Positions 50,372 through 52,031 of a DNA stretch of 64,000 nt are shown here, piece by piece. Source of the DNA: Aminobacter anthyllidis (GTDB lineage: Bacteria; Pseudomonadota; Alphaproteobacteria; Rhizobiales; Rhizobiaceae); assembly GCF_018555685.1 (NCBI RefSeq), contig NZ_JAFLWW010000005.1, positions 496,001-560,000 of the forward strand, in the 5' to 3' direction. How positions within the stretch are numbered: the stretch's first letter is position 1; the number at the start of each line of letters is the position of its first letter. Both the position numbers and the translations under genes were made by a program. The notes under the pieces are model-generated. The model saw only the letters and a program-made list of their open reading frames with translations. It was not told the DNA's origin and ran no database searches.

Positions 50372-50469
50372 TCTCGTACCAAGGGCCTAGTGCGATGGTC
50401 GCACTTGCCAAAACGTCGGAAACACCCCACCTTGCTGTTGTGTTCAACGAACTGAAAGGAGGTGATCCG

Positions 50470-50541
50470 ATGTCGAGTGATTTCGTTTTCCTAAACGTGG
50501 CCTCAGCGGATTGCCCTTTCGGGAAGCAGTCTTCCCGTTAA
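50470..50541 (+). CDS. 23-residue small ORF behind an exceptionally strong ribosome-binding site
   Basis: ATG at 50470, TAA at 50539-50541. The peptide starts MSSDFVFLN, has one cysteine (residue 15) and ends KQSSR. The spacing from GGAGG to ATG is 7 bases, optimal, and the complementarity to 16S rRNA is 15 bases, far beyond normal. Product function unknown; it could be a leader peptide, a small protein, or an ORF that is translated only to shape the RNA. Confidence 0.5.
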   Translation: MSSDFVFLNVASADCPFGKQSSR

Positions 50542-50610
50542 GGCGCGAGAAGCGCGGCTGGTGACCTCCGGGTCATAAGCCAGAGACCGCGCCATGGACG
50601 GAAACACGGA

Positions 50611-50645
50611 AAGGCCGCACCTTCGCAAGAAGGGCGGCCTTTTTT
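50611..50645 (+). terminator. Strong intrinsic terminator of the small RNA/ORF
   Basis: AAGGCCGC, one bulged A, CCTTC, loop GCAA, GAAGG, GCGGCCTT, then TTTT: a 13-pair stem with a GNRA-like loop and a T-run. Its T-run lies 19 bases before the convergent tadG-like stop. Confidence 0.9.
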
Positions 50646-50663: not shown

Positions 50664-52031
50664 CTATTTGGTCAGCGCCAGTCGCTCGATGTTCTGAGCG
50701 ATTGTCTGGAAGGCAGCATCGAGTTCCTTCCCGTTTGAGGTCTCGAAATAGCGCTTCACCACACCGTCGGGCGAAGCGCAGTCCTTCATCGTCTGCTTCG
50801 CGGCAGCGGTGTCGAGCTTGAAGCCAATGCTGAAAATCTCGACGCCCTTCTTGCGCATCTCTTCGCACAACGTCTTGGCCGCAGCGCGGGTCGCGGTCTT
50901 GCCGCTCGCATTGTAGGCGCCCTTCCCGTCGGAAGCGTCGGCATAGGACAAGTTGAATTCACCGTCGGTCATCAGGATTGCGAACTTAGCCACCTTTTCC
51001 GGATCGGCCTTGTCAGGTCGCTCCGACTTCTGAAAGATCCCGGCCCAGTTCTCGGACAGCGTGTACCATGCCCATTGGATGCCGATATGCCCTGCCGTGC
51101 CACCATCGGCAACAAAGGCCTCGATCTCGGTCTTGAGCTTCTTGCTATCGTCGGTAAGTGGCACCACCTTCGCGCTGGGGCAGGTTGGTGTGTCGTCGTA
51201 TTCTTTGGAGTAGTCGTCGATGAGAAAGTCGCGATTGACCATCGAAAGATCGGGGCCGGCATCGGTGTACTGGTAATCCCCTTTGCGCTCGGTGGCGCAA
51301 TTGTCGGGACGCGTCGAGCTCGAAACCGCCTTCGCATCGGTATTGGCCGGCGCTTGCTTGCGGTCCGCCATACTGCGCTCCACGAAGACAGAGCTTGACG
51401 CCAGAGTGCCTGTATTGACCGAGTTTGCGTAGGGCACAAGCGACATGCGCACGCGCGGGTCGCCTGACGGTGTCTTCTCACCCTTCAGAAAACTGTCGAC
51501 CGCATTCGTTGCTGCCTTCTTCAGATCTTTGATCTTCTGACCCTTCATCGATCCGGTCACGTCGAGCATCATCGCCACTTCGATGCGCTTGTCGGAATAG
51601 AGTGAAGCGGTCTTCGCCGAAACGCGCTGCTTGTTGGCACTGCCGAACAATGGAAAGAACACATTGACGTCGATATAGGCCGATGCCTCGACAGTGCCGA
51701 CCAGCTTGTCGACTGTCACCTTGTTCAGCACGACCTTTTCGCCGGGCGCCAGCAACCGGCTGGAATTGGCCTCGAGAAAGGCCCGGACTGTAACGTCCGC
51801 GTCCTCAAGCTTGATCCTACCGGTCGTCAGATCCCGCGCGGTCGACGTCACCGCGGCATCGACTGCCTGCGACAGGCCCGATTTGACATTGTGAAGCTGG
51901 GCCACGTTGACGCCGAAGCCGGCTGCCATGGCGAGCATGGAAATGGTGATCCCGCCCAGGATGGCGAAATTGCCGCCGCTGTCGCCGGCGAAAAGCTTTG
52001 CCGCCCGTGCCAGTGCCTGAAATTTCCGCAT
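50664..52031 (-). CDS. TadG-like pilus-assembly protein with von Willebrand A domain
   Basis: A 455-residue protein. A short cytoplasmic N terminus is followed by one membrane segment (FAILGGITISMLAMAAGFGVNV, about 21-42) and a TadE/TadG-type N-terminal part (QAVDAAVTSTARDLTTG). A vWA domain runs from about residue 150; its metal site MLDVTGSMKG is a DXTXS variant of MIDAS. ILMTDGEFN is the Asp-containing strand. No other tad genes adjoin, so it is an orphan of the pilus locus. Probably anchored in the inner membrane with the vWA domain outside. Confidence 0.87.
   Translation of the reverse strand: MRKFQALARAAKLFAGDSGGNFAILGGITISMLAMAAGFGVNVAQLHNVKSGLSQAVDAAVTSTARDLTTGRIKLEDADVTVRAFLEANSSRLLAPGEKVVLNKVTVDKLVGTVEASAYIDVNVFFPLFGSANKQRVSAKTASLYSDKRIEVAMMLDVTGSMKGQKIKDLKKAATNAVDSFLKGEKTPSGDPRVRMSLVPYANSVNTGTLASSSVFVERSMADRKQAPANTDAKAVSSSTRPDNCATERKGDYQYTDAGPDLSMVNRDFLIDDYSKEYDDTPTCPSAKVVPLTDDSKKLKTEIEAFVADGGTAGHIGIQWAWYTLSENWAGIFQKSERPDKADPEKVAKFAILMTDGEFNLSYADASDGKGAYNASGKTATRAAAKTLCEEMRKKGVEIFSIGFKLDTAAAKQTMKDCASPDGVVKRYFETSNGKELDAAFQTIAQNIERLALTK

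Follow-up and report, generated by a model that had tools for sequence, protein, structure and literature searches.

A free-standing alphaproteobacterial RNA related to Rfam CC2171, with an extended Shine-Dalgarno sequence and a short ORF, as a possible structured RNA opened by ribosomes

The 64,000-nucleotide stretch of Aminobacter anthyllidis DNA analysed here (the window) appears, from sequence comparison, to hold a free-standing RNA of about 205 nt that is homologous to the Rfam family CC2171 (RF01867). Its features are best explained, at a probability of roughly 45%, as those of a structured RNA whose short ORF lets ribosomes open and reset it, and not as those of a peptide gene. Comparison of its relatives shows an extended Shine-Dalgarno sequence and a start codon, followed by an ORF that hardly varies in length, and two covarying helices, P1 and P2; in the Rhizobiales type the ORF stops at P2, and in one clade the ribosome site and an anti-site within the RNA covary. 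Opening by ribosomes is the simplest model because it needs a strong site, a start and a set stop, and no particular peptide. The locus had been picked out in a sequence-only reading, whose observation is confirmed here and whose interpretation is supported in part.

The 23-codon ORF, two hairpins and terminator described in that reading are all located on the forward strand, at 50470-50645. A putative promoter (CTTGCC-N17-CCACCT, 50404..50432), proposed from a motif count in MSS-type members, lies upstream of the extended Shine-Dalgarno sequence GAAAGGAGGTGATCC (50454..50468), and the ORF (50470..50541; MSSDFVFLNVASADCPFGKQSSR) runs from an ATG at 50470 to a TAA at 50539-50541. The outer helix P1, supported by covariation, has its 5′ strand GTGATTTCGTTT inside codons 3-7 (50477..50488) and its 3′ strand GGACGGAAACAC directly 5′ of the terminator (50596..50607), and is predicted in the window RNA only when the 5′ tail is blocked. 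An internal anti-Shine-Dalgarno sequence, GCGGATTGCCCTTTCG (50506..50521), could close the ribosome site, as judged from the fold, the pairing energy (-18.4 kcal/mol) and shuffles. The 7-bp hairpin P2 (CGGGAAG-CAGT-CTTCCCG, 50520..50537), backed by MSS-type members and compensatory changes, ends one base ahead of the stop codon, which begins 8 nt past the loop. It is followed by a variable hairpin, P3 (50556..50581), carrying ACCTCC at 50564-50569, and by an intrinsic terminator hairpin with a U-run (about 50609..50645), seen in the fold and in relatives, a terminator-like hairpin being called in 238 of the 251 stretches gathered. The predicted fold of the RNA lies 5.0 s.d. below those of dinucleotide shuffles, none of 200 being as good. 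The unit had also been described as free-standing, with no gene after it on the same strand, and this holds: the next gene is convergent, a long ORF on the opposite strand (50664-52031) that we take to have a pilus/vWA-like look. A tmRNA was considered and rejected, ARAGORN having found only one tRNA-Pro in the window.

The ribosome site had been singled out as a 15-base complement of the full 16S tail, beyond the extent of a normal site, and its energetics bear this out. A 16S pattern was found in one of six genomes searched, the source assembly being without the 16S 3′ end; the only readable end, from a genome of the same family (locus L155), reads ...GGATCACCTCCTTTCT, so that the match spans the whole unpaired tail. 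The predicted pairing of the site with this tail is -29.7 kcal/mol, as against -13.8 kcal/mol for the best 16S-tail pairing upstream of 127 mechanically called window ORFs of at least 150 aa, many of which are presumably not genes. Its 13-base core, AAAGGAGGTGATC, has a single occurrence in the whole 6.7-Mb assembly. The RNA might on this evidence be a trap, its site binding the full 16S tail and holding 30S subunits or ribosomes, perhaps in stress. The pairing energy favours such a trap, as does the start of P1 only 8 nt into the ORF, on ground that an initiating 30S subunit covers, and the putative promoter, which may resemble RpoH promoters and be of heat-shock type, would count on the same side. 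A trap would, however, require very high abundance of the RNA, and we regard it as quite improbable.

The promoter motif itself, CTTGnn-N17-CCAnnT, stands upstream of 34 of 110 MSS-type members, with 0.05 expected in shuffled upstream DNA, and the 88 of these 110 that have CTTG in range yield the consensus C.CTTGCca...CCCCAcatT. The genome has six groES-like genes, four with CTTGAC and TATCTC together with a GTTAGC(A/G)CTC-type repeat and one with a CTCTTGAA...CCCAGAT site; comparison with these six gave no help on heat-shock control of the putative promoter, and PMC2976971 yielded no RpoH1 consensus.

A strong ribosome site, a start codon and an open frame are present in nearly all members. 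The first stop in frame 0 falls 18-28 further codons on in 125 of 137 distinct members, compared with 15/137 in frame 1, 16/137 in frame 2 and 19% of 2740 shuffles. Over the 251 stretches, among which are the copy in the window, some that are nearly identical and a small number with ORFs of odd length (6, 31-36, 55 and 59 aa), the commonest ORF lengths are 18 and 21-26 aa, and the Bradyrhizobium types have 14 aa. The strength of the site, the start and the nearly ubiquitous open frame favour a small-protein gene, in which the active product is a peptide of about 14-30 aa and the RNA folds do no more than adjust how much of it is made, and so does a codon 2 that is Ser in nearly all members, although the gathering pattern required its first base. 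A small protein gene had been among the sequence-only proposals, and it is disfavoured here, selection on the peptide being evident in none of the groups. In nearest-neighbour pairs over codons 6-17, where numbers are small, no significant excess of synonymous change was found in any of seven groups (lowest p 0.17). The dN/dS-like ratios were 1.23 in Mesorhizobium-like members, 1.28 in other MSS-type members, 1.05 in the Rhizobium type, 1.03 in the VSH type, 1.30 in others, 3.41 in sphingomonads and 0.64 in rhodobacters (p 0.17). Under an earlier grouping, synonymous fractions ran from 0.11 to 0.44 around a neutral value of 0.28-0.30, the highest resting on 18 codons, and in pooled close pairs third codon positions vary less than first and second ones. 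Moreover, P2 is read as GEQPS in some members and as LRSSL in others, that is, in more than one frame. A functional peptide is on these grounds unlikely. The stop lies 3-26 nt past the P2 loop in each frame, mostly at 3, 5, 8 or 14 nt, and because it tracks the loop across frames it is tied to the RNA and not to the end of a peptide. The frame and its end are conserved around a peptide with no detectable constraint, which suggests that translation, rather than the peptide, is what matters.

Two groups of members have ORFs of a particular kind. In the sphingomonads (MSHG type; e.g. L164, L165, L167) nearly all ORFs are 18 aa long, an anti-site is no more frequent than chance allows, and codons 6-17 show 6 synonymous and 52 non-synonymous changes, an excess of the latter. 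At loci L128 and L233 the extended site is followed, in place of the short ORF, by one of 55 or 59 aa whose start resembles a signal peptide.

The two helices were assessed by pairing each 5′ strand with its own and with exchanged 3′ strands. For P1, a sample of one member per different 5′ hexamer (49 distinct 5′ types) scores 13.62 with the members' own 3′ strands and 11.16 with swapped ones (s.d. 0.35; highest of 500, 12.06), and over all 233 members (the 251 stretches minus 13 without a called terminator and 5 outside the spacing window) the scores are 14.14 and 11.44. A run-length test, which included some wrong terminator calls, gave a weaker separation of 6.61 against 5.92. Co-changed strand pairs include CATTGTC/GACAATG, CATGGTT/GACCATG, ATGAGATT/AATCTCAT and GCAATTT/GAATTGC. 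P2 with a CARY loop is found in 99 of 110 MSS-type members, and its mean stem is 6.32 bp with the own arm and 3.86 bp with swapped arms (highest of 500, 4.46), in a test whose choice of the loop giving the longest stem biases it toward the own arm over the swapped control. That bias does not enter a 46-row alignment (46 of 78 listed sequences) and the RNAalifold run made on it. Over P1 and P2 together, 91.7% of its cells are paired, as against 79.1% when shuffled and 43-59% when slid, and it holds 82 two-sided changes (21 in P1) as against 29 shuffled; the pairs with a two-sided change number 10 as against 7.1, a figure matched by 7 of 500 shuffles. From this alignment RNAalifold recovered P2 and the terminator without P1, which was nominated by hand and then counted. 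Compensatory change among relatives, named in the sequence-only reading as the check on its hairpins, is found in P2, together with covariation in P1.

The covarying hairpin of the MSS type, whose CARY loop is almost invariant, would also suit a dual-function sRNA, one whose partners in trans are mRNAs or further sRNAs and whose ORF is a second or incidental output. This is the main rival to opening by ribosomes, and it is further favoured by the free-standing, sRNA-like unit with its terminator and by a homologue that Rfam calls an sRNA. An incidental ORF, however, would not retain its frame and stop so widely, and a complement as long as the entire 16S tail suggests ribosomes as the partner; the dual-function reading is on balance somewhat doubtful.

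How ribosomes might open and reset the RNA is suggested by predicted folds and covariation. In the unconstrained fold of the window RNA, the site at 50454-50468 pairs with 50508-50520 in the ORF, and P1 does not form, its 3′ strand being occupied by the 5′ end and by 50535-50539; the idea that the ribosome-free RNA holds P1 was rejected on the strength of this fold. Blocking the 5′ tail in the prediction yields P1 and a complete P2, and with the ORF kept open the only structures left are P3 and the terminator. The RNA alone would then have its site shut against the ORF, uptake of the 5′ tail, as by 30S pairing, would allow P1 and P2 to form instead, and elongating ribosomes would melt both. 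The ORF would in this way act as a gate that couples the shape of the RNA, and perhaps its lifetime or partner binding, to ribosome supply. Across the 233 members, the unconstrained predictions close the site in 85 and form a P1 of at least 4 bp in 121, and with the tail blocked a P1 of at least 4 bp is predicted in 214. A closed site and P1 occur together in 2 of the 233 predictions, an exclusion that is partly forced, as a mate lying inside P1 makes a pseudoknot that the program cannot draw.

The mate of the site has a mean pairing energy of -16.4 kcal/mol in MSS-type members, as against -12.8 kcal/mol in shuffles. At p <= 0.05 a mate is predicted in 58% of 107 MSS-type, 33% of 52 VSH-type, 41% of 17 rhodobacterial and 3% of 30 sphingomonad members, and in 41% of all 233, and by these predictions an in-RNA anti-site is not universal among members. 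In a Rhizobium-type clade of 21 members, the mate lies 2-7 nt past the stop codon in 20, with GGAGG accompanied by CCTCC in 3/3 cases and GGAAGG by CTTCC in 16/17; the sole GGATGG member carries CTTCC, an inexact mate. Just after the stop, CCTCC/CTTCC is absent at that place in 102 of 103 other MSS-type members. The extra base of the GGAAGG sites (17 of the 21) spoils the unbroken 16S match and leaves the anti-site in place, which counts against a ribosome trap; most of this clade has lost the match and retained the internal pairing. In the clade of the window RNA, by contrast, 18-33 nt separate the anti-site from the stop downstream of it, too far for a ribosome to cover it merely by terminating. 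Self-pairing had been part of the sequence-only reading, and it stands to the extent that the site can pair with an anti-site in the same RNA, the better-supported mates being GGATTGCCCTTT inside the ORF and the CCTCC/CTTCC just past the stop in the other clade. The mate then proposed, the ACCTCC tip of P3, was rejected as a conserved anti-site: of the 10 copies in the genus, the window RNA alone has ACCTCC between stop and terminator, and 0 of the 9 others do. Rhodobacterial members show another anti-site layout, with a CCACCTCC- or CATCTCC-like anti-site just before the P1 3′ strand. A near-constant TTGGAG is found in the ORF at L142, L306 and rhodobacterial loci such as L162, L169, L221 and L237.

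The pattern by which members were gathered had GGAGGTG-like letters and NTGT as fixed elements, which makes the conservation of those letters in part a product of selection, and loci L085, L142 and L149 (matched by the Rfam model) and L026 and L030 (matched by DNA) were left out as not fitting. DNA matches occur in 35 of 61 genomes, the source genome included, and at least one of them (L030) covers the terminator only. The sequence-only reading had made its case depend on conservation in close relatives, and this is seen: the RNA is conserved in 10 of 10 genomes of the genus, its own included, and within the family the letter pattern is found in 72 of 121 genomes and a covariance model built on 46 sequences finds it in 94 at E <= 0.01 (90 at E <= 2.6e-13 and 4 weak), leaving 27 with no match. 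Since 31 of the 121 family genomes lack a strong match, the RNA is not essential everywhere in the family. Beyond the family, the CC2171 model matches in 85 of 385 genomes of the class, with 13 above the cut-off, and in 55 of 299 genomes drawn from the phylum, none of the 55 more distant than the class. Scanning named genomes with the pattern returned at least 119 stretches; of the 80 matches listed by title, three go no further than Proteobacteria and all others belong by name to alphaproteobacterial groups, among them, as we take the names, Rhizobiales, Sphingomonadales, Rhodobacterales, Rhodospirillales, Acetobacteraceae and Caulobacterales. It is possible, and is put forward tentatively, that this is a class-wide RNA whose function is translation itself, with an ORF kept open at near-fixed length, no selection on the peptide and a co-evolving site and anti-site, and that it reports or buffers ribosome supply.

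The succession of short ORF, alternative hairpins and terminator also recalls an attenuator, or a leader peptide, controlling a gene further downstream. The window's next gene is convergent, however, and among 237 loci the nearest downstream mechanical ORF shares the strand of the RNA in 100 and is opposite to it in 137, with no neighbour gene common to all; the largest downstream cluster (28/237) is convergent and of the same kind as the window's 50664-52031 ORF. A role in attenuation is scarcely credible here.

The relationship to CC2171 lies below the thresholds of Rfam. At Rfam's own cut-offs the window reached no family, and in permissive mode (401 bases) CC2171 aligned over model positions 1-159 of 159 at 36 bits (E 3.7e-6), short of its gathering cut-off of 75 bits; this is the only CC2171 match at E <= 0.001 in the 6.7-Mb genome. 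Sixteen of 20 loci scanned, the window's included, match the model at E <= 0.1, all below the cut-off. All 13 above-cut-off members (L062-L074) hold an ORF of 21-26 aa that begins with GTG or ATG. Common to both are the full-length alignment, a 5′ GAAAGGAGGUGAUCC, the start codon, the outer helix and the terminator, and the covariation of P1 over 49 5′ types takes in the CATTGT/ACAATG of the above-cut-off members; the ORF sequence and the inner hairpins are unlike those of the window RNA. CC2171, for which Landt 2008 is reportedly the source, is filed by Rfam as gene/sRNA, without mention of an ORF, and in an account of Rfam 15 RF01867 is among the families with improved pairs, one having been added (PMC11701678). 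The sequence-only statement that no described family matched does not survive, given the full-length alignment and the listing of the Mesorhizobium huakuii sRNA MH_s33 as RF01867 CC2171 (PMC5596092). MH_s33 is an intergenic sRNA with two coordinate sets (397 and 215 long), likened to the window RNA by this listing and not by sequence, and the table passage in which it stands describes no translation (PMC5596092).

Small RNAs with a short ORF are represented among alphaproteobacteria by rnTrpL/peTrpL (PMC10117765) and Pos19 (PMC5036791). In its published description rnTrpL is an attenuator whose peptide is functional (PMC10117765), whereas the window RNA shows neither selection on its peptide nor a downstream regulated gene. 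Ribosome profiling in Caulobacter indicated that two RNAs earlier predicted to be non-coding are translated, the passages concerned leaving them unnamed (PMC4117421), and in the S. meliloti small proteome 33% of 54 non-annotated translated sORFs are reported to lie on annotated sRNAs (PMC10117765). In the literature searched, which takes in few subscription papers, no account of a class-wide translated RNA was found, and a text search with the peptide and 15-mer letters gave no title on the window RNA among the matches listed. By comparison, what is catalogued as a non-coding sRNA of Caulobacter proves to be widespread among the Alphaproteobacteria, with a short ORF that is conserved and a ribosome site close to the maximum. 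Should its purpose be translation and not a meaningful peptide, this would be an RNA that senses ribosomes and, if true, a case in which conservation of a frame must not be taken for a protein; a family of unknown role becomes directly testable in laboratory alphaproteobacteria.

An anti-Shine-Dalgarno sequence inside the RNA is a feature that the window RNA shares with SmelA075 and SmelA099 (PMC3927594) and with Rfam ar14, which have CCUCCUCCC loops. Those loops presumably offer anti-sites to other mRNAs, whereas the window RNA carries a site together with its own anti-site. At one locus (L017), an ar14 sRNA with CCUCCUCCC loops (1746-1867; RF02344, 61.7 bits, above cut-off) adjoins the RNA on the opposite strand.
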